DNA from: Arenicella chitinivorans
GTDB taxonomy: Bacteria; Pseudomonadota; Gammaproteobacteria; Arenicellales; Arenicellaceae
Assembly (NCBI RefSeq): GCF_014651515.1
Contig: NZ_BMXA01000001.1
Location: 620,001 to 684,000, forward strand
Length of the DNA stretch: 64,000 nucleotides
Direction: 5' to 3'
This document shows positions 4,615-50,149 of the stretch, piece by piece (position 1 is the first letter of the stretch; every line of letters begins with the position of its first letter). Made by a program: the position numbers and the translations under genes. The notes beneath the pieces were generated by a model. The model saw only the letters and a list, made by a program, of their open reading frames with translations, searched no databases and was not told where the DNA came from.

Positions 4615-5517
4615 TTAGCTGGCTAGTGGTTGACTGGCCTGACCACTATTGCGCAACAGATCATCAATACGCAAGACTTCTTCTTTAAAATACTGGTCCA
4701 AGTGTATTTTGGCGAACTCAGACAGTTGGTGTCGCTGTCCTTGGCGAATGTTTTGGTTGCGCAGTTTTTGCCACACTTGGTGTCTCAGCTTCGCAGGTAG
4801 CAGCAATTTGAATGGCGCTAGTAACAGTTTTTTAGCAGGGTTCTGCGCATTCAGAAAGGTATGCAACCAACCGAACTTGGGCACGCCAGAGGCGTTCAAA
4901 TGCGATTGTTTCGTGGGCAATGTATGTGGCTCCACGCCCAGAAAGTCACACACTCGGTTTACCAGCTGTTGTGGGTTGCTGTGTAATTGTCGATAGTCCA
5001 ACAGCAGTACGTTATCGTGACCGAACAGAGATTGATACTGTTCGATGTGATCCGCGATTAGCCCCAATCGACAATAATTGAATCCATAGTCAACGCCATT
5101 TAATGTACGTTGTTTGCCATTAATTTCGTCTTCAATCGCTTGGTCCAATGATTCAATTTCCAAACCTTCTCTAACTTGGTGGCCCCACATGGACAATGCG
5201 CGCTCAACTGGGTTGCGGATTAGGCAGATTATTTTACAGTCTGGGATTTCCGCGTGGATACGTTCCGCGCTCTCCGGGTAATACAAATAGGCCGTAGACG
5301 CTTCACCGAGTGCTTTCTCGTGGTGCTGATCGAACAATGCGACGTAGTCATCGTGATCCGTGATGACCGGAAAATTGAACTTTTGCTCGCGACAAAAATA
5401 GTGTGGTTCTTTCAACTCCGGCAAAAATACCTCGGGGTTACTGTTCAATAGGCCGTGCAAGGTCGTGGTACCAGACTTGGCTGCGCCAGCGATAATAAAA
5501 TTGGGTTTACGTGTCAT
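4615..5517 (-). CDS. PAPS-dependent sulfotransferase
   Basis: A 300-residue sulfotransferase-domain protein. The PAPS 5'-phosphosulfate-binding loop is AAKSGTTTLHGLL (about residues 12-24), and the 3'-phosphate-binding segment is CLIRNPVERALSMW (about 98-111). The ATG at 5517 is chosen: it gives an N-terminus running directly into the binding loop and a 10-nt gap from the upstream polymerase gene, whereas the longer in-frame start at 5616 would overlap that gene. The placement between the Wzy-like polymerase and a glycosyltransferase suggests that it sulfates the exopolysaccharide or its lipid-linked precursor (inference). A carbohydrate acceptor is more likely than a small metabolite because of context. 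Confidence 0.85.
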   Translation of the reverse strand: MTRKPNFIIAGAAKSGTTTLHGLLNSNPEVFLPELKEPHYFCREQKFNFPVITDHDDYVALFDQHHEKALGEASTAYLYYPESAERIHAEIPDCKIICLIRNPVERALSMWGHQVREGLEIESLDQAIEDEINGKQRTLNGVDYGFNYCRLGLIADHIEQYQSLFGHDNVLLLDYRQLHSNPQQLVNRVCDFLGVEPHTLPTKQSHLNASGVPKFGWLHTFLNAQNPAKKLLLAPFKLLLPAKLRHQVWQKLRNQNIRQGQRHQLSEFAKIHLDQYFKEEVLRIDDLLRNSGQASQPLAS

Positions 5518-5527
5518 AAAGTGTCTC

Positions 5528-6886
5528 TTATCGATTAGTCGAGAGCGATTCAGAAATGATGCGGAATCGGCCGAGTAAGTTATGTTGATAGGTGTCCACG
5601 TCTGCGAAGCATTCACGGATACCGACGCCGATCAACAACCAAGCTGGCCAAGTCATATAAGCCAGCGCCTCGATGTTTTCACTCATCGAGAAAAAGCCCA
5701 GGATGAGGCACATACCAAGGCCTAAACGAGAGCTCACCTGATACTGTGCTTTGATCAATAGGACCAGGCACGTGAGTACAAATGGTGTGAGGAATGCTAA
5801 GAAACCTATGAAGCCCTTAACAAACAGCAGCCCATACCAATTGTGGTGCGAGCCAATAGGCATGAACTCAACTAGGTGCGTGCCGGTTTCCACCACGCCA
5901 TGCCCAAACCAGAATGCTTCTGATTGCCAACGGTAAAGCGCGATATTGCCCAGGCTGGCACGGACACGTGTTGAGTCTGCACGCGCTTCTTTAATGTCGT
6001 TTAAGGTGGTTAGCAGGAATTCGGAGATGGGGTCGAACATCATCGCGACCGCCAAAATACCGCATGCGGTGGTAATGATTACCCAAGGGCGCGTTAATCG
6101 TGATAATCCCCACACTGCGAGCGGAATGAGTAGTAGTACGATAATGCCCATGCGCGAGCTGGCAAGGAAGATCATCGTCGCGTTTCCAATCAGGCCCACA
6201 GTCTTCCAGAAGCGATCTTTTTCGAACCATGCACATAAGAAATAGATATTCGCGACAAATCCGACGGCGGGCGCCCAGGGTGCAAAATACCGCCAGCGCG
6301 GGCGACCGTTAAATGGGTCGATCTCGTAGAGACGAATCGTGAAAAACTCGGGTCCGGCACCGCCGAATACCTTCAACGGCGATACATACAATGTTTCAGG
6401 CAAGCGCAGAATAAAGGCCATGATGAGTGCTGGCGTGGCGAGTAATGCAATCAGTCCAACGATACACGCGGCACGACAAATGACTTGGTAGCGCAGCTTC
6501 AATGTATAACCCAACACAATGAAAATGCTTAATAGTGCCCAGCCTTTAGCCCAGCCAATGGTGGATTTAATTATTTTGCCGAAACCCAGATTGAAGTCGA
6601 CGTGGGCGATCACCAGCGTGAGCTCGAGAATTAGCGCGCTTAGGCACCAAAGTGCGATCAACCATTTGGTGTTTCGGTGACTGAGCTTAATACCGCTGAC
6701 CCAACGCGCGATCACGACTGCAGCCAGTCCCCAACCGAGTACCGGAGCAATGAGGTATAAGGCACCGACCAAGTAAAATGCAAAGGTCAATGTGATGCAG
6801 CGCGTGATGAGACGTTCGTCGCTACTCAGCGTACCGAAATCGTGCCAACGTTGATAGCGTATCTTATCGTAGAGCTCGGCGATCAT
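5528..6886 (-). CDS. O-antigen ligase / Wzy-type polysaccharide polymerase
   Basis: A 452-residue integral membrane protein with about 10-12 hydrophobic segments and a large periplasmic loop. It contains the pattern common to the Wzy_C/O-antigen ligase family near the C-terminal loop (FWFGHGVVETGTH, then GSHHNWYGLLFVKGFIGF). These proteins polymerise or ligate undecaprenyl-linked glycans on the periplasmic side. The start lies 1 nt after the stop of the Wzz-like gene, so translation is probably coupled. With the flippase and co-polymerase in the same locus, a polymerase role is favoured over a lipid A ligase role (inference). Confidence 0.8.
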   Translation of the reverse strand: MIAELYDKIRYQRWHDFGTLSSDERLITRCITLTFAFYLVGALYLIAPVLGWGLAAVVIARWVSGIKLSHRNTKWLIALWCLSALILELTLVIAHVDFNLGFGKIIKSTIGWAKGWALLSIFIVLGYTLKLRYQVICRAACIVGLIALLATPALIMAFILRLPETLYVSPLKVFGGAGPEFFTIRLYEIDPFNGRPRWRYFAPWAPAVGFVANIYFLCAWFEKDRFWKTVGLIGNATMIFLASSRMGIIVLLLIPLAVWGLSRLTRPWVIITTACGILAVAMMFDPISEFLLTTLNDIKEARADSTRVRASLGNIALYRWQSEAFWFGHGVVETGTHLVEFMPIGSHHNWYGLLFVKGFIGFLAFLTPFVLTCLVLLIKAQYQVSSRLGLGMCLILGFFSMSENIEALAYMTWPAWLLIGVGIRECFADVDTYQHNLLGRFRIISESLSTNR

Positions 6887-6887
6887 A

Positions 6888-8267
6888 TCATTGCTCCTTG
6901 TTCCGTTCGGTGAAGTTGAGGTCGCTCATCAGACATTGGCGCACGTCTGCCAAAATCACAGCCAGCGACAACAATCCAAAGACCATAAACAGGGCGACGA
7001 TGATCAACTTGGCTTGCAGGCGATCGCGCTTAATGGTGCCGCCTGGTTCCGTCAATAGTTGTGTCAACGGGTAAGTAGCGTAGATGTCCAATCGACTGGT
7101 ATCGAGCTTTGCCAGTGCCGAACTGAATATAGCCTCAGCGATTTGGTGGTTACGTTTGAGATCGCTCAGATTGGCCGCTTCACGCGTGTGAGATTTTATG
7201 CGTTCACTGTAAAGTTCGCGTTGCTTGACTAAAACTTGAATCCGAGCTTTGGTACCTTCTATCGTGGCCAGTTGTTGATTTATGCTTTGTAGCGTGCCAC
7301 TCAGGTCCTCGGAGAGTAGGCCATAAAGTTGGCTGCGATCCAATGTGTTGAGGTCGGGTATGTTAGTCAGGTTGTTCGCCAGCGCGTTGCGAATTCCCGT
7401 CAACTCTTTACTCACTTGTCGACGCATTGGGTTTTGCGCACCGTACACCTCGCGCATGCTGGATTCCTTGGCTTGTGTTTCTGCCAAAGCTTGTAACGCA
7501 CTGCGCGTTGTGGGGTTAGCTTGCGGTAGTAATAAAGCTTGAGCTTGGGCCGGCGAAATGCCCAGTTGCCGTAGCTCGGCTTCCAGTTTCGCGGACTGTG
7601 AGGCAAGCTCAACTTCCGCGCGGCTCTGTTCCGTACGCAGTTGTTCCGCGTCGGTGAGCCAGGTCTGAAATTGACCATCGGAAAGAATGTTACCGTTGTT
7701 CTGATATTCAACAATGGCTTCGCGTGCCGCTCGTAAGCGTTTTTTTGCTTCCGATAAATTGCCTTCGACGCCTTGATAATGGCGCTCGATTTCATTGGTT
7801 CTCAACTCGTCGAGCACGGAATGAAACACGGTGTTATAGAGTTCAGCGCGGTGCGTCAGTTCTTCCGGTGACCTTCCCTTAAGAGAGAATTGCATGGCCG
7901 GAGTCTGATCGATCAGGCGGATTCTGGGTTTGCTAAACGCATTCGCAGGTACCGAATACGCTTTGGCGGCGCGTTGAATCACTGCATCACTCAACGCAAT
8001 TTCTTTATAGGTGTTTTTCGGGCTGATGGAAACACTGCCATAGGCGTTTTTACCACTGCTACGGGCTTCACCTAGATTGTCCAGGTTGATGGTTGATCCG
8101 CGCTCAGTGCCAGGTAGCAAGACCACCCAGTCGGTTTTGTACTTAGGGCGCTCGAAAACCGTGTTCAGAACTGCAATCACCGTAACCACAATGAAAATTG
8201 CCGCAATGCGAAACTTTACGCGCCAAGCACTCGCAAGGAATGCACGAAAAAACAGAGGCCAGTTCAC
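6888..8267 (-). CDS. Wzz/GumC-type polysaccharide co-polymerase (chain-length regulator), no kinase domain
   Basis: A 459-residue protein with a membrane segment at each end (about residues 17-37 and 423-442) and a long periplasmic coiled-coil region between, the architecture of polysaccharide co-polymerases. The C-terminal part has the pre-TM pattern LLTEPGGTIKRDRLQ in place of the usual P/G-rich motif. It ends after the second membrane segment, so it lacks the cytoplasmic tyrosine-kinase domain of PCP-2a proteins. The start codon is GTG, overlapping the upstream stop as GTGA. It probably sets chain length and bridges the Wzy-like polymerase to the export lipoprotein. Confidence 0.85.
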   Translation of the reverse strand: MNWPLFFRAFLASAWRVKFRIAAIFIVVTVIAVLNTVFERPKYKTDWVVLLPGTERGSTINLDNLGEARSSGKNAYGSVSISPKNTYKEIALSDAVIQRAAKAYSVPANAFSKPRIRLIDQTPAMQFSLKGRSPEELTHRAELYNTVFHSVLDELRTNEIERHYQGVEGNLSEAKKRLRAAREAIVEYQNNGNILSDGQFQTWLTDAEQLRTEQSRAEVELASQSAKLEAELRQLGISPAQAQALLLPQANPTTRSALQALAETQAKESSMREVYGAQNPMRRQVSKELTGIRNALANNLTNIPDLNTLDRSQLYGLLSEDLSGTLQSINQQLATIEGTKARIQVLVKQRELYSERIKSHTREAANLSDLKRNHQIAEAIFSSALAKLDTSRLDIYATYPLTQLLTEPGGTIKRDRLQAKLIIVALFMVFGLLSLAVILADVRQCLMSDLNFTERNKEQ

Positions 8268-44351: not shown

Positions 44352-44843
44352 ATGCAACTAGAATTTTGGTTTGAATTTGGTAGTACGTATTCATACCCGG
44401 CTGCAATGAGAATTGAGCATCTTGCTGGTGCGCATAATCTAGAGTTGCTATGGAAGCCATTTTTGCTCTGCCCTATATTCAATAATCAAGGGTGGAACGA
44501 CTCTCCATTCAATACACATCATGCTAAAGGTAAGTATATGTGGAGAGATATGGAGCGGATTTGTGAAGCAGAAAGTATTCCACTCAAAAAGCCTTCCGTA
44601 TTTCCGAGGAATGGCCTTTTAGCTTCTCGGATAGCATGTACATACGCGGCAGAGAAATGGATTCCTGATTTTATACGATCAGTCTATAGCGCGAATTTTG
44701 CAATGGATCTGGATATTTCCGATTCAAAAGTCATAAAGTCGTGCATTCCATCGGTTGCGGGGTGCAAAGATACCGTTGTTGATCAAGCTTCGACTCCAAG
44801 TGCGAAAGTATTGACTAAACATGGACAGCCACTGTCTGACTAG
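44352..44843 (+). pseudogene. 2-hydroxychromene-2-carboxylate isomerase-like (DsbA/thioredoxin-fold) protein, C-terminally truncated
   Basis: The 163-residue product matches the first three quarters of HCCA-isomerase/DsbA-family proteins: FWFEFGSTYSYPAAMRIE, WKPFLLCPIFNNQGWNDSPFNTHHAKGKYMWRDMERIC, FPRNGLLASRIACTYA and FIRSVYSANFAMDLDISD. Homology stops at residue ~156, and the last residues (HGQPLSD) are translated from the repeat beginning at 44811. The C-terminal active-site segment around GAP(S/T)FFV is missing. An in-situ truncation by the REP-like composite repeat is the simplest reading. It may have been the next gene cassette. Confidence 0.7.
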
Positions 44844-44897
44844 ACTAAATGACTAAACAAAACATGGACAGCCACTATCTAAAAAGTTGGTTTGAAT
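44811..44897. repeat. Composite REP-like repeat, unit 1
   Basis: An ~85-bp unit with two copies of ACATGGACAGCCACTRTCT (44819-44837 and 44862-44880) separated by GACTAGACTAAATGACTAAAC and ending AAAAAGTTGGTTTGAAT. The inner GACAG-CCA-CTGTC is a small hairpin. It interrupts the isomerase-like gene. A further single core copy lies at 44909-44927. Confidence 0.85.
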
Positions 44898-44926
44898 GAA
44901 AAGACTAAACATGGACAGCCACTGTC

Positions 44927-45005
44927 TTGACTAAACATGGACAGCCACTGTCTGACTAGACTAAATGACTAAACAAAACATGGACAGCCACTGTCTAAAA
45001 AGTTG
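44927..45005. repeat. Composite REP-like repeat, unit 2
   Basis: The same unit as at 44811, with core copies at 44935-44953 and 44978-44996. It ends as AAAAAGTTGA and passes straight into a metalloprotease-like coding fragment. Confidence 0.85.
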
Positions 45006-45233
45006 ACGGTAAAATGTGATGGCGGTTGTGATGGTGACCCTCCGTATTTGGGATATAACCGGAGTTTTCTTGGTATTCGAAGTAAGAGTGCATTTGTCTG
45101 TACTAACCTTGGCAACGATAAGTCTTGGGGTAGAACGGCTGTACATGAGTGGGGACATAGTTGTGGTTGGGGGACAAACTCTAACCCTCATCCTAGTGGC
45201 TCGGGTATCCCAAGTGGTTGGGACGTTCTTTAA
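45003..45233 (+). pseudogene. HExxH zinc metalloprotease-like fragment
   Basis: A 76-codon open frame whose start (TTG) lies in the end of repeat unit 2, so its natural 5' part is missing. The readable segment contains SWGRTAVHEWGHSCGW, a zinc-peptidase HExxH motif (HEWGH) with a further downstream His (NSNPHPSGSGIPSGW). It is the C-terminal piece of an unknown peptidase-like protein. It ends cleanly at a TAA before a new small open frame. Confidence 0.5.
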
Positions 45234-45247
45234 TATTTGGTAAATAA

Positions 45248-45304
45248 ATGATTAAAACTAGAATTATTATTGTTTTATTGCATATTGCAGTGCTGGGTAA
45301 CTAA
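45248..45304 (+). pseudogene. Start of a small exported protein, cut by repeat unit 3
   Basis: ATG at 45248 opens MIKTRIIIVLLHIAVLGN, a typical signal-peptide start, 15 nt after the peptidase fragment stop. The stop codon is supplied by the beginning of repeat unit 3. A two-gene unit (peptidase plus small exported partner) may have existed here before the repeats broke it (inference). Confidence 0.35.
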
Positions 45305-45383
45305 ACATGGACAGCCACTGTCTGACTAGACTAAATGACTAAACAAAACATGGACAGCCACTATCTAAAAAGTTGGTTTGAAT
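45300..45383. repeat. Composite REP-like repeat, unit 3
   Basis: The third copy of the ~85-bp unit, with cores at 45305-45323 and 45348-45366, ending AAAAAGTTGGTTTGAAT as in unit 1. Confidence 0.85.
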
Positions 45384-45548
45384 TGTTTTAGCCTATCTGA
45401 AGGCAATTTTTCTTAAAAAAATGGACGGACGGCTAGTCAATTTGTACTAGACGGGTGGACATACCGCCTGGCTATGCTCTTGGGTAAACACAAGGCGAGC
45501 ACTATCCTCACTGACGTGATGATGACTAGTGTTCGGGTGCTTATGCGT

Positions 45549-46508
45549 TTAGGGTCGGCTAAGCGAGCAAGGCGGTTTTTCGACTGGGATGCCACGACAC
45601 ACACGCCGATCGATATGGTCACTCCCAACCCAGCTCTGAAACCGTTTTTCAAATTCCGTGGTGAGTATCATCCAAGATGCCATGTCTAAGTCGAGTCGCT
45701 GTAGAATGGACGGGAGCTGGTCTGGAATTGATCCGCGTTTGTCAGGTCGGATACACCTCCCGGTCCAGTCGACTAAAGCAAAGTAGTCTTTTAATCTGTA
45801 AGGGATGCCTATTCCATGCTCCGTTATTCCAACAAATTGTTCTAATCCGGAGCAATCTGAAATACCTTGTTTCAGCATTTCGATTCGATACTTGATGGCA
45901 GTGTGAGCGGATTTTTCCGGCGAGTTTGCCATTTTGGCTCGAATGGGATTTAGGTCCACATAGGCCATACAGGACAGCAGCGCACGCTCATCCAATAAGG
46001 CCTGACTCTTAAACCTTCCCTCCCAGAATCGCCCAGTACACTTGTCTTCTTTGTTGGCTTGCCGAGCAATGGACTCGTTCACAATGCGCATAAACCAAGA
46101 TATATCCATTAAGCGCTTTCGCCAGCACTTGATATCTCGCCGCAGCACCGCCCATTGTTGTTCACTGAGTGGTTCGCCTGCTATGAACCGCTGTGAAAAC
46201 GGCGTGCCGCAAAAGAGGCGACTCCATCGTTCGACCACTTCACGTTCAGACCACGCGTTTGCGATATCGGGTCTGACATGCAGTACGACATGGAAGTGAT
46301 TGCTCATCACTGCATAAGAGCATAATTTGATTGCAAATATGTCGGCAGTGCGACGAAGCTTTAGTTCCAACCAATCACGACGGTGTTCATAGCTCTTTGC
46401 AGTCACTCGGTCATAACCGCAAAGATAGGCACGCCGAACACAGCGAGAAACACAATGATAAAAGGGCGTGTCACTGAGCGACACTAATTGTTTGCGTGGG
46501 AGCGCCAT
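45549..46508 (-). CDS. REP-associated tyrosine transposase (RAYT, Y1 HUH family)
   Basis: A 319-residue IS200/IS605-like Y1 transposase of the RAYT type. It begins MALPRKQLVSLSDTPFYHCVSRC. The HUH motif is SNHFHVVLHV, and the probable catalytic Tyr lies in CMAYVDLNPIRAKM. RAYTs are single-copy host-linked transposases that act on short REP hairpins. The ATG at 46508 follows AGGAGG at 5 nt; an in-frame start at 46526 is possible. Variants of TGGACANCCACT flank the gene: a partial TGGACATACC about 90 bp after the stop and TGGACATCCACT about 70 bp upstream of the start (reverse strand 46576-46587). Confidence 0.85.
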   Translation of the reverse strand: MALPRKQLVSLSDTPFYHCVSRCVRRAYLCGYDRVTAKSYEHRRDWLELKLRRTADIFAIKLCSYAVMSNHFHVVLHVRPDIANAWSEREVVERWSRLFCGTPFSQRFIAGEPLSEQQWAVLRRDIKCWRKRLMDISWFMRIVNESIARQANKEDKCTGRFWEGRFKSQALLDERALLSCMAYVDLNPIRAKMANSPEKSAHTAIKYRIEMLKQGISDCSGLEQFVGITEHGIGIPYRLKDYFALVDWTGRCIRPDKRGSIPDQLPSILQRLDLDMASWMILTTEFEKRFQSWVGSDHIDRRVCRGIPVEKPPCSLSRP

Positions 46509-46575
46509 CCTTGCCTCCTGTTTCAATCCGTTGAGTTAATAAGGTCTCATAGACTTAGGTAGAGTTCAAGAGATA

Positions 46576-46587
46576 AGTGGATGTCCA
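46576..46587 (-). repeat. REP-like core TGGACATCCACT next to the RAYT gene
   Basis: Reverse-strand TGGACATCCACT, one base from the TGGACAGCCACT cores at 44.8-45.4 kb. The flanking bases (TTATCT) also match the repeat tail. It overlaps the start codon of the next small gene. Confidence 0.7.
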
Positions 46588-46925
46588 AAGAGATACTTAC
46601 AGAGAGTTATAGTTGGCATACCGCAGCGACGCATCGAATATCGTATCTGCATCATGCGGGATTTACCTGGGATCCTAAGGAATATTACTGGACGACCAAG
46701 CAGATACTAACGTCAAATCAAACACACGATAGCGGAGACTCGATAACGGGTAAACTATGCGCGAACCGCCTTCTGAACAACGAGATTTATGAAACAGTGT
46801 TTCGTGATCTCAAATTCACCTACGAGGAGCTTTTACGCATGGGGTTGCAAACACGCTACCAGTGCTCGCTTTGCACGGCGGGAAGCGAGTGTAATACGCA
46901 GTGTCGAAAAAACCACTCATGTTGA
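46581..46925 (+). CDS. Hypothetical Cys-rich-tail protein
   Basis: A 114-residue product with no family recognised. The C-terminal 25 residues hold six Cys and a His (YQCSLCTAGSECNTQCRKNHSC), which could bind a metal. The start ATG lies inside a REP-like core, so the original start may have been elsewhere. No ribosome-binding site is clear. Real-gene status is moderate. Confidence 0.4.
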   Translation: MSKEILTESYSWHTAATHRISYLHHAGFTWDPKEYYWTTKQILTSNQTHDSGDSITGKLCANRLLNNEIYETVFRDLKFTYEELLRMGLQTRYQCSLCTAGSECNTQCRKNHSC

Positions 46926-46976
46926 GTCCCGTTGGTGAGTTTTTGTTCGCATTGGGTGCCAGTAGTGGTAACTAAA

Positions 46977-47813
46977 TCAGTTCAACGGTGAGCGGTGCAC
47001 GGTTGGTGTTTGCGAGTGGTAGAACGACGATGAGATCTGTTTGCCACAAGAGTCAAGTTTCGCGAGAATTGTCTGGGTCTTAATACTGTTCACCGCGTCG
47101 ACGTCCCTACATGCGAGCGCAGAGTTTCGATTCCCGTGCAGTGTGAAGATCTGACTATTTGGCTCCTTGCTTTCGATTGTCTCGGGTAGATAGAGCATAT
47201 GCTTCGGTGGGACCCAAACATCGGCGAGGCGGATCTCCTTAGTAGCAGGTTGGTAGCGGGCGAGGGAGATTACGAGGTGCTGCTTTGCTTGGGAGCAGAA
47301 CACGTGTGGAAATGCGTGGTGTTCAAAATCAACCCAATTATGGGGTAAGAGATCACGGTTGCGACTAGCAGGAAGATAAGGTGATTGGAACATGGCCCAT
47401 ATCCCGTAAGTGTAAGTGTGAATCTCGATGGTACTGAAGTTAAGATTGAAACACTCTCCGGGAGAAATAAGCTTGCCACCGAAGAAAGCAAGAATTTCAC
47501 TATTTGCCACCAACGGGGCGTATACGAGTTGATCTACTAGCGTTCCAGTATCATCAGTGAACGAGAGCTCATTAATCGTATTATGAAATTTGTCCACCTT
47601 TGTTTTGATGACGTTCGCTACATACCGCGTTCCAAGTTCAGTTAGCTGGTGAGTAGGTCGGGCAACATTACTACCAGATTTGGGGCGCTCAGGCGATAGC
47701 TTAGGTACGCCATCAATATTATGAAGCCAAGTGTCGTGGGCAGGATTTTTATCTACCGGGCCATCGGCGATATATAAAACGGGGTTAAAATTTGGTTTTT
47801 CCTTATCATCCAT
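46977..47813 (-). CDS. Hypothetical protein in accessory region
   Basis: A 278-residue product with no motif I recognise. There is no signal peptide or membrane segment; the middle is rich in aromatic residues and His (HNWVDFEHHAFPHVFCSQ), and the N-terminus is charged (MDDKEKPNFNPVLYIADGPVD). A ribosome-binding site-like AAGGAGA is present 9-15 nt upstream of the ATG on the minus strand (TAAGGAGATAAAA), which supports a real gene. It lies between the Cys-rich small gene and a REP-like core, and converges with the former. Confidence 0.6.
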   Translation of the reverse strand: MDDKEKPNFNPVLYIADGPVDKNPAHDTWLHNIDGVPKLSPERPKSGSNVARPTHQLTELGTRYVANVIKTKVDKFHNTINELSFTDDTGTLVDQLVYAPLVANSEILAFFGGKLISPGECFNLNFSTIEIHTYTYGIWAMFQSPYLPASRNRDLLPHNWVDFEHHAFPHVFCSQAKQHLVISLARYQPATKEIRLADVWVPPKHMLYLPETIESKEPNSQIFTLHGNRNSALACRDVDAVNSIKTQTILAKLDSCGKQISSSFYHSQTPTVHRSPLN

Positions 47814-48184
47814 TTTTATCTCCTTAGCTGATACCGGTGTTAGAGTAATGACTATAACCCCCAGCGGCGTCCTAATTTTCCATTTGTATCAGAAATATTA
47901 GTTTTTATTGGAAATATGGGAAGTTCGGCATGGACAGTATGTAGGCAGAGCCGAGTGGGTGTCCACGGTAGGGAATTGCACTCAAAATTGTGAATCAAGT
48001 GAATGCCCTTTGAATGCGAATGGCAGTGCGAGCGTACATTGAAAATTTCATACTTGGGTTAAGACACAATTTCCATACAAAATGGCAAGTTCAATTATTC
48101 GTGGTTTTTTTTAATATCTATGGCTAAATCTCATTGGTGTGTGACATGAAAGGTTCGGTAAAAACTGTGTTGAGGCTGTCGCAG
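47814..48184. other. Intergenic region with a REP-like core
   Basis: About 370 bp with no gene. It holds the REP core AGTGGGTGTCCA at 47954-47965 (reverse strand reads TGGACACCCACT), whose GTGG-GTGT-CCAC forms a hairpin. A related CATGGACAG sequence lies 20 bp to its left. The rest is AT-rich and probably carries the promoters of the flanking divergent genes. Confidence 0.5.
47954..47967 (-). repeat. REP-like core TGGACACCCACT
   Basis: AGTGGGTGTCCACG on the + strand; GTGG and CCAC form a 4-bp stem around GTGT. It shares the TGGACANCCACT consensus with the other copies. Confidence 0.7.
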
Positions 48185-49777
48185 ATGCGTCTCTATAAGC
48201 TTCTGAATCTACTGCCGCTTATTCTGATTTGTGTAGCGACCTCGTCATGCTCGTATATGCATAATGTGCTGGTTCAGATTGAGTACCGGCGGCTGCAAAG
48301 TCAGGAACCAAGCATGACCAACTTGAGACATCTCATTGCTAGTGAAACTGTTTTTATTTACGGCACTTTGGATGATATTGACTCGATATATACTGATAAA
48401 ACTTTCGCCGTCGCAGCGATATCGAATCAATTTCTAAAATCTGAGCTTGTAGACGTAATGCACGGTGTACGCGCTAACACGCACTATGGTCTGAACCTTC
48501 CTCCGGGCGAATACCAATTTCTTGTTTTTACAGACCTGAATTCGAATGCGCGCTACGAACCCACTGAGGTGGTCGGGGAACGCGCAGTATGGATTCCCGA
48601 TGAAGTCACACAAACGGTTATCGGAGACCTCGACATTCCACTTGAAGAACCACTGAAAAAAAAATACACAGTGACTTTTACTGCCGCAGTTTCAAGCGGT
48701 GAAACACCCTCGCTGTTTTACCCTGCAGGCACAATCCGAGATATAAACGATCCGCTGTTCGACCGCGACGTAGCCACTTTGGGTTTGTATCATCCGGCTG
48801 CATTTCTCGAGAAAGCAAGAACCATGTTTTATGCTTTGGAAGAAGATGTGCCATACAAGATTCCTGTAATCTTTGTCCACGGAATAGGGGGTACCCCGGC
48901 CGAGTTTAAACACATTCTCGAAAAGATGGATCGCAGACGATTCCGGCCATGGTTTTTTTATTATCCGTCCGGCAGCGACCTAGATCAGATGGCCTTGTTT
49001 TTTCAAAACATTTTTCTATCTGGGCGGGTCATCCCGGTAGACGAGAAGCTTCCCATTTGGATTGTGGCTCACAGTATGGGCGGACTTGTAGTAAAGGAAG
49101 CGCTAAATATTCAAAAAAAACCTAAGAACCGTATTGTGTTTATTTCCATGGCATCGCCTTTTGGCGGGCATCCCGCCGCAGCAAAGGGTCACAAGATGGC
49201 GCCCATGGTTCTGCCTGCTTGGCGAGATTTGGACCCAGACGGCGAGTTCATAAAAAATCTGTATCGGAGACCGACAGATCCACTGGTCGAGCATCGACTG
49301 CTCTATGCCTATAAAAAGCCCAACAGGTCGAGGTTGCGGGAGAATAGTGACGGGGTTGTTAGCTTATCGAGCCAGTTGAGAGCAGAGGCGCAAAAGGCAG
49401 CGTTTACACAAATTGGCTTCAATTCCTCACACTCAGAAATGCTTGCGCAGGATACGGTAGTTGATTATGTAATTGACGAACTATCACAAGCGAAAACGAA
49501 TCTGCCTCCGGCACATTATTACTATCTCCTCGCCGATGGATTCGATGTGAGCAATAACCATGCATATTCTGACCAGCAAAAACACAGCCTGCGGTACTTG
49601 GGAGCCTATATGCATGCGCTGGCAGACCGAAAAATAGCGCCATTGAATGCCGATCAGAAGCGGTTTGTCTCAACCGCGCTGGGCGAGAGAAAGCCCGTTA
49701 ACCATATCGAAAAGACATGGTGCAAGTTTGTGAGGCTAAATCAGTTGTCTATCGCTGGATGCGGACTACAAAAGTGA
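48185..49777 (+). CDS. Alpha/beta-hydrolase (lipase-like) lipoprotein
   Basis: A 530-residue protein. From the ATG at 48185 it has a lipoprotein signal peptide MRLYKLLNLLPLILICVATSSC (Cys 22), preceded by GAGGCTG; in-frame starts at 48146 (ATG) and 48134 (TTG) would lengthen the N-terminus. An N-terminal beta-rich domain of about 170 residues (LPPGEYQFLVFTDLNSNARYEPTE) precedes an alpha/beta hydrolase domain. That domain has the oxyanion-region motif FVHGIGGTPAEF and the nucleophile elbow IVAHSMGGLVV. Later Asp and His (SDGVVS, NSSHSEML) could complete a triad. It is probably an envelope lipase or esterase. It stands alone between REP-like copies. Confidence 0.75.
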   Translation: MRLYKLLNLLPLILICVATSSCSYMHNVLVQIEYRRLQSQEPSMTNLRHLIASETVFIYGTLDDIDSIYTDKTFAVAAISNQFLKSELVDVMHGVRANTHYGLNLPPGEYQFLVFTDLNSNARYEPTEVVGERAVWIPDEVTQTVIGDLDIPLEEPLKKKYTVTFTAAVSSGETPSLFYPAGTIRDINDPLFDRDVATLGLYHPAAFLEKARTMFYALEEDVPYKIPVIFVHGIGGTPAEFKHILEKMDRRRFRPWFFYYPSGSDLDQMALFFQNIFLSGRVIPVDEKLPIWIVAHSMGGLVVKEALNIQKKPKNRIVFISMASPFGGHPAAAKGHKMAPMVLPAWRDLDPDGEFIKNLYRRPTDPLVEHRLLYAYKKPNRSRLRENSDGVVSLSSQLRAEAQKAAFTQIGFNSSHSEMLAQDTVVDYVIDELSQAKTNLPPAHYYYLLADGFDVSNNHAYSDQQKHSLRYLGAYMHALADRKIAPLNADQKRFVSTALGERKPVNHIEKTWCKFVRLNQLSIAGCGLQK

Positions 49778-49927
49778 CGCCAACAAACCAGGAATCCTGC
49801 TGATACACGCTCGATCTGTAGGGGGCGCTAGTCATGGCTTTCCAGTCAGTCATCCACACTGCATGAGAACAGGGAGATTTAAATACAGGTACTGAACCAA
49901 GCCGTATCCCACGGTGAGTGGTAATAA

Positions 49928-49952
49928 AGTGGGTGTCCACGAATGGAGAGGG
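49928..49952 (-). repeat. REP-like core in 25-bp direct repeat, left copy
   Basis: It starts AGTGGGTGTCCACGAATGG and continues GAGAGGG; the identical 25 bp occur at 50125-50149. On the reverse strand the core reads TGGACACCCACT. Confidence 0.85.
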
Positions 49953-49960
49953 CGCTGGGA

Positions 49961-50126
49961 AGAGGATAGAGGGAGAGGATAGAGGGAGAGGATAGAGGGA
50001 GAGGATAGAGGGAGAGGATAGAGGGAGAGGATAGAGGGAGAGGATAGAGGGAGAGGATAGAGGGAGAGGATAGAGGGAGAGGATAGAGGGAGAGGGAGAG
50101 GGAGAGGATAGAGGGAGAGGATAGAG
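49961..50126. repeat. 13-bp minisatellite AGAGGATAGAGGG
   Basis: Ten perfect tandem units AGAGGATAGAGGG run from 49961 to 50090, followed by two AGAGGG part-units, one full unit and a partial unit that merges into the right direct repeat. The tract is purine-only on one strand apart from a single T per unit, so it may adopt unusual DNA structure and vary in length by slippage. Confidence 0.95.
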
Positions 50127-50149
50127 TGGGTGTCCACGAATGGAGAGGG
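50125..50149 (-). repeat. REP-like core in 25-bp direct repeat, right copy
   Basis: Identical to 49928-49952. The GAGAGGG end of the repeat resembles the minisatellite unit, so the tract may have grown from this sequence by slippage. Confidence 0.85.

Follow-up and report, generated by a model that had tools for sequence, protein, structure and literature searches.

It has been reported that Y1 transposases of subclass 2.3 are proteins of ~325 amino acids with the motifs NHYH and YVDLNP and a median HuH-to-tyrosine distance of 110, and that they are multicopy and found in Chromatiales and Alteromonadales; in the part of that study consulted here, automatic and manual searches are described as giving no repetitive extragenic palindromic (REP)-like sequences for either subclass 2.1 or subclass 2.3 (Quentin et al. 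2018, PMC6006769). Genes resembling REP-associated tyrosine transposases (RAYTs) and lying between terminal inverted repeats (TIRs) have been known since 2013 as TIRtrons (TIRYT), part of whose TIRs carry a GGGGWSAS motif in the sections of that report used here (Di Nocera et al. 2013, PMC3733652). In the same portion of the classification, 26 TIRtron examples are assigned to subclasses 2.1, 2.2 and 2.5 and none to 2.3 (Quentin et al., PMC6006769). Here we describe a transposase gene of subclass 2.3 type and its repeats in a 64,000-nucleotide (nt) stretch of the Arenicella chitinivorans genome (contig NZ_BMXA01000001.1, positions 620,001 to 684,000), referred to below as the window. The 12-nt core repeated around this gene is very probably the inner part of the TIR of a ~1.27-kb one-gene mobile element, and partial copies of the element are stacked outward from its ends. 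We found in the open-licence PMC literature no report tying subclass 2.3 to TIRs or repeats, nor one of end-anchored copies at a Y1 element, and both the TIRs of subclass 2.3 and the end-anchored stacking appear to be new. The features of the element are as follows.

45549 to 46526, minus strand: Y1 (HUH) transposase gene, 325 amino acids, subclass 2.3 type, TTG start (open reading frame (ORF), family matches, motifs, AlphaFold2 model, Foldseek)
46576 to 46599, minus strand: left-end TIR, TGGACATCCACT (46576-46587) plus ~12 nt of outer sequence (exact match; outer limit presumptive)
45339 to 45362, plus strand: innermost right-end TIR, TGGACAGCCACT (45351-45362) plus ~12 nt of outer sequence (exact match)
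44814 to 45384, plus strand: array of right-end-anchored partial copies with seven cores (repeat comparison)
45014 to 45299, no strand: unrelated DNA within the right-end array (sequence comparison)

The window transposase fits subclass 2.3, judged by length, motifs, copy number and hosts. It has NHFH at residue 76, YVDLNP at residue 189 and a HuH-to-tyrosine distance of 113, and the window's genome holds seven long copies of the gene, at 62-100% identity and one of them interrupted by two stops, along with eight shorter matches. Like the subclass as far as it is characterised in PMC6006769, the family combines ~325 amino acids, an NHYH-type HuH motif, WE, YVDLNP, a multicopy gene and gammaproteobacterial hosts, the hosts of named relatives being mostly marine. 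The catalytic HuH and tyrosine motifs appear conserved, with YVDLNP in 99 of 100 relative translations and NHYH in 51; unlike the NHYH given for subclass 2.3 in that account, 28 of the 100 have NHTH, and in these and in the 2 with NHSH the middle residue of HuH is not hydrophobic. The window protein does not reach the curated thresholds of Pfam Y1_Tnp or NCBIfam REP_Tyr_transpos, the latter family being matched by all 61 aligned sequences (61 of the 100 translations; E up to 0.001). An AlphaFold2 model (mean predicted local distance difference test 85.0, predicted template-modelling score 0.86) had, at E <=0.001, a sole PDB match by Foldseek, the E. coli TnpAREP structure 4er8 (TM-score 0.53 by target length, 10% identity); a sequence search of the PDB with the relatives' alignment gave a single insignificant match (E 0.48), and phage records searched with the window protein gave none.

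Unlike the genes of subclass 2.3 as published (PMC6006769, in the part used), those described here carry conserved inverted ends with the core GACANNCA. The arrangement resembles TIRtrons in that a RAYT-like gene lies between TIRs unrelated to GTAG REPs, some of them clustered (PMC3733652). It is unlike them in its core and in its outward, end-anchored stacking, which is not among the features described in the consulted sections of PMC3733652; in our consensus, RGACANNCA, GGACAS can be overlaid by eye on the GGGGWSAS motif of that report, but there is no run of four Gs. REPtrons, in which TnpAREP is found with GTAG/GTGG REPs, share the HUH Y1 fold (4er8) and a gene flanked by specific inverted repeats, and differ in that the family here has no conserved GT[AG]G-foot hairpin, few dispersed copies and a multicopy gene. 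With IS200/IS605 the element has in common the catalytic superfamily and its nature as a mobile unit; in contrast to the Y---Q motif, ~150 amino acids and same-strand hairpin ends of those elements, it has Y---NP, double the length and inverted ends, and no tnpB was seen in the window element.

Eleven exact copies of TGGACANCCACT surround the single Y1 transposase gene and none lies further away in the window, of which 100 dinucleotide-preserving shuffles gave a mean of 0.03 and a maximum of 1. Seven are TGGACAGCCACT on the plus strand (starts 44822, 44865, 44912, 44938, 44981, 45308 and 45351), and on the minus strand there are one TGGACATCCACT at 46576-46587 and three TGGACACCCACT from 47954, 49928 and 50125; a second reading of the letters of six of the eleven agreed. 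A first-pass annotation of this DNA had listed the same eleven copies, with no other in the window, and in this it was right; its start for the plus-strand group, 44819, is 3 nt low, and its other starts are exact. It had also tied the core to the RAYT-like gene and proposed a genome-wide search. This agrees with what we find: the whole genome (4,031,349 bases, 17 contigs) holds 48 exact cores against 2 for the reversed pattern, and the core is not confined to this island but recurs beside further copies of the gene. Thirty-two of the 48 lie within 2.5 kb of any of 15 transposase-matching places, the zones of that width around 11 of the 15 making up ~1.6% of the genome, and the other 16 are more distant. 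In a search of 18 genomes of the genus, the exact 12-mer is abundant in the window's genome, and the other 17 have at most 4 each.

In the window, the left-end core stops 50 nt before the TTG start of the transposase gene, and the innermost right-end TIR lies 187 nt beyond its stop, inverted relative to it. The same arrangement was seen in a motif scan of 97 of 109 loci (12 were dropped for short flanks), in which GACANNCA ranked top among the gapped and ungapped 6-base patterns. The loci are not independent, several coming from one genome, and the whole of locus L057, from another genome of the genus, recurs without a mismatch within L082, from an Arenicella metagenome-assembled genome; this shared sequence is counted twice in the scan, the letter agreement, the surroundings similarity and the side and unit counts unless these are given without L082. 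GACANNCA was found upstream on the same strand at 81 of the 97 loci, downstream and inverted at 84 and in both places at 72, with 5, 11 and 1 for exchanged orientations; without L082 the figures are 80, 83 and 71 of 96, and the wrong-orientation controls are again 5, 11 and 1. Cores are most frequent 50-125 nt ahead of the gene match on the upstream side and 200-325 nt past it on the downstream side. Thirty later loci of the same family, found with a profile built from the first set and less than 95% identical to it over 500 nt, were held out, and the 26 with enough flank gave 21 upstream, 22 downstream and 19 with both, against controls of 1, 7 and 0. The scan supersedes a matching of flanks by score alone, a weak test in which the best inverted match scored >=12 in 37/103 own pairs, 38/306 mismatched pairs and 6/103 shuffled ones.

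The two ends of an element also resemble each other. At 67 loci with both ends in the fixed ranges, the variable letters of paired ends agree at 69% of positions, whereas permuting the partners gave 50% (largest of 5000 permutations, 60%), so that the core covaries with its locus, as the first-pass annotation had suggested looking for among relatives. The classes that it had set apart by the variable base N are real, but correspond mainly to end types. Of the cores in the window's genome that lie no more than 2.5 kb from a gene copy or fragment, all 22 with G sit on the strand opposite to it and 8 of the 10 with C or T share its strand, which suggests that N mainly marks the end, C or T on the left and G on the right; among the 67 loci the first N is G in 10 left against 25 right ends (Fisher p 0.005).

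Some paralogues have discrete boundaries. The pairs L102/L103 (92.6%), L103/L105 (95.2%), L132/L137 (90.5%) and L090/L091 (98.0%; right end by the motif rule in L091 only) align to within ~12 nt of both predicted edges. The majority of other paralogue pairs do not align to both, and in the five closest copies in the window's genome the alignment begins near the left edge and ends 141-291 nt before the right edge, where this is called, because the 3' regions of the copies differ. Between neighbouring copies of an end (L082, L048, L049 and L050 excluded), identity is 0.90 through 9 nt outside GACA, 0.56 at 11 nt and ~0.3 from 16 nt, and for 68 of 101 pairs perfect identity breaks off at 9-13 nt. 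To judge from these alignments, each TIR is ~9-13 nt of locus-specific outer sequence followed by GACANNCA reading into the element. Short forms resembling miniature inverted-repeat transposable elements, with a ~62-nt left end directly joined to a ~27-nt right end, occur in L088 (~2.0 kb before the element) and L100 (~2.1 kb after the element start).

The array of the window contains 84-nt units at 44814-44897, 44930-45013 and 45300-45383, with a shorter unit between the first two. A DsbA-like ORF (44352-44843) has its last codons within this array, by which its end seems to have been replaced. Here and on contigs C2 and C6, each repeat downstream of the gene reproduces part of the local element, always with its right end but from an inner starting point that differs between copies, and some include part of the transposase gene. 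In three clusters of the window's genome, the 3' sequence found in the units is that of the local element and not that of the other clusters. Elsewhere, the element resembles parts of its surroundings at 46 of 91 other loci, not always in an end-anchored manner.

The ends, taken for these tests as the core nearest the gene within fixed ranges, have their additional copies mostly on their own side. Within 1 kb, and without L082, left-type TIR copies number 48 on the left (28/80 loci) and 1 on the right, and right-type copies 63 on the right (31/76 loci) and 8 on the left (49, 1, 64 and 8 with L082 included); the expectation for the left side from shuffled left-end queries is 0.15 copies. With the outer 11 nt as query, and L082 and L048 excluded, an additional copy lies at most 300 nt outward from 62 of 154 ends, against 3 inward, 0 outward in the wrong orientation and 49 of 3080 random sites (1.6%), some of which may themselves fall inside arrays. 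Held-out loci gave 9 of 40 ends, with 2 inward, 0 in the wrong orientation and 11 of 800 random sites. The innermost units measure 11-243 nt (median 25), many of those of 11-19 nt being devoid of part or all of the core, and 64 of 120 units extend at most 9 nt past the assumed edge (62/118 without L082). Perfect right-end units of 131 nt in L223 and of 205 nt in L219, the latter followed by a 12-nt edge repeat, point to what may be recent events. In two records of Pseudoalteromonas shioyasakiensis, an equivalent site adjoining an isocitrate dehydrogenase gene and acetolactate synthase genes has 2 upstream cores in one and 6 in the other.

Several observations weigh against an element that copies its ends outward in place. 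The TIR edge is placed only to ~9-13 nt, and cutting at that point is presumed; GACANNCA is a short motif and occurs in the wrong orientation downstream at 7 of the 26 held-out loci. Eight right-type copies lie on the left side, 92 of the 154 ends have no outer-edge copy, and 18 of 120 units contain >=40 nt unexplained by the local end. Foreign DNA separates some units, in the window (45014-45299) and in L032 and L035, and two fragments in L039 (5042-5600) have a left core fused straight to the transposase gene around codon 246. Neither is a product of a reaction that acts only locally. The P. shioyasakiensis regions are only 85-91% identical, and the difference in their core number thus reflects divergence rather than change within a strain. 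By eye, the foreign DNA includes a HEWGH-motif fragment in the window segment and IS3-like pieces in L035 (6235-6451 and 6535-6983), one of which is found twice with an identical 83-nt right-end unit; that in L032 (~5430-7300) holds a 511-amino-acid ORF.

Cutting by HUH Y1 enzymes yields a 5' phosphotyrosine and a free 3'-OH. On single-stranded DNA, the transposase might cut a TIR at its outer edge on the strand that reads inward, the position and the strand being those that the arrays suggest, and would then remain linked through its tyrosine to the 5' end of the TIR while the flank kept the 3'-OH. A polymerase could extend this 3'-OH into the element, and the extended end would presumably be rejoined to the tyrosine-linked TIR. 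What is added beyond the end would be an incomplete copy whose outer breakpoint is always at the edge and whose inner one varies. Repetition of such events at either end independently would build left-type arrays on the left and right-type arrays on the right, and nicking, extension and rejoining would account for the side, orientation, length range and local origin of the units. Resolution of a phosphotyrosine link by an added oligonucleotide with a 3'-OH has been described in vitro for TnpAREP, in the part of the study consulted (Corneloup et al. 2021, PMC8266576). We consider the arguments for and against extend-and-rejoin copying as the origin of the arrays to be evenly balanced on the arrays as we read them, and somewhat favour the combined explanation of a TIR-bounded subclass 2.3 element with outward copying. 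That a Y1 HUH transposase copies its own inverted ends outward through a single-end nick, extension and premature rejoining, each end acting independently in a local replicative mode, is a tentative proposal that falls a little short of probable. IS91 and Helitrons transpose from one end, with one constant and one variable end. Here, unlike in those elements, both ends show this pattern, each on its own outer side and locally.

Alternatively, a protein bound or linked at the ends could stall the replication fork, and the arrays would then come from slippage or template switching there, with no rejoining by the transposase. Slippage too would produce short tandem copies that are perfect or nearly so, as many units are, but it does not by itself explain why the outer edge is fixed, and the excess of outward copies (62 ends against 3 inward and 1.6% of random sites) has one breakpoint at the TIR edge; we regard this origin as unlikely. 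Aberrant transposition, in which a true end is joined to a false second end and the truncated piece inserted beside a resident end, would explain why one end is constant and the other variable, as well as the foreign DNA between units and the repeated IS3-like piece on the right-end unit of L035. It seems decidedly unlikely given that the units of three clusters match the 3' sequence of their local element rather than that of other clusters, and that the copies of each end go to its own side, which free insertion would not require. Selection might have kept the arrays as multiple binding sites, for example to control the transposase gene, and some loci do have several left-end cores 50-350 nt before it; with stacking also behind the gene, and with the many 11-19-nt units without a full core looking like traces of copying rather than binding sites, this is very improbable. 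Insertion of a full element into an older copy would leave left-anchored pieces to the left and right-anchored pieces to the right of the full copy, as seen, but the two halves should meet at one coordinate, and in the loci that were checked they do not: L057 has 1-400 on the left and 985-1287 on the right, L104 has 258-1268 on the right without 1-257 on the left, and the long right pieces of L043 and L044 have no counterpart on the left. We give such nesting next to no credence.

The first-pass annotation had read the core as a REP family with a GTGG-GTGT-CCAC hairpin, which would make this a canonical REP and RAYT pair whose GTGG-footed hairpins are mobilised as dispersed repeats. The gene is RAYT-like and has specific inverted repeats, and the hairpin can indeed form in C-type copies. 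Only 13 of 81 ends on the left and 10 of 77 on the right, however, retain its 3-bp stem, and folding of the inward stretches (L082 and L048 excluded) gave a mean z-score of -0.55 for the left (80 ends) and -0.14 for the right (76 ends); neither result supports a REP with a conserved GTGG hairpin. Strong hairpins in which the core pairs with an inverted partner are found in a few clades (left ends of L119, L124, L142 and L154; right ends of L152, L159 and L161), and such hairpins are thus present at some loci but, on these predicted folds, do not define the family. A dispersed REPIN family was sought in the window's genome, where the exact short inverted-pair pattern was present at one place only. 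The genome has 48 copies, not hundreds, and two thirds of them (32) cluster near a copy or fragment of the transposase gene, which is itself multicopy; the REP reading did not survive these results, and a canonical REP system is extremely improbable.

A multicopy subclass previously without a DNA partner gains one, a conserved core at predictable distances from the gene, and its binding and cutting become testable with short oligonucleotides. The stacking looks like a DNA record of single-end reactions and suggests, in concrete terms, how short repeats could be seeded by a transposase, a question that bears on the origin of REPs. If the proposed copying does occur, clustered families of TIR or REP-like repeats would arise from it directly, and where adjacent DNA is captured now and then, so would small arrays that carry genes.

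Further from the gene on its left side, the window has the following cores.

47954 to 47965, minus strand: solitary left-type core, TGGACACCCACT (exact match)
49928 to 50149, minus strand: two left-type cores (49928-49939 and 50125-50136) with a common outer sequence, 197 nt apart (exact matches)

The last two flank a 13-nt tandem repeat, AGAGGATAGAGGG, of 12.8 copies at 49961-50126. A 547-amino-acid ORF at 48134-49777 has an alpha/beta-hydrolase region (DUF676) and a DUF413 stretch at its C-terminus, and a 114-amino-acid ORF with no family match (46581-46925) begins within the left-end core of the element and is divergent from the transposase gene.

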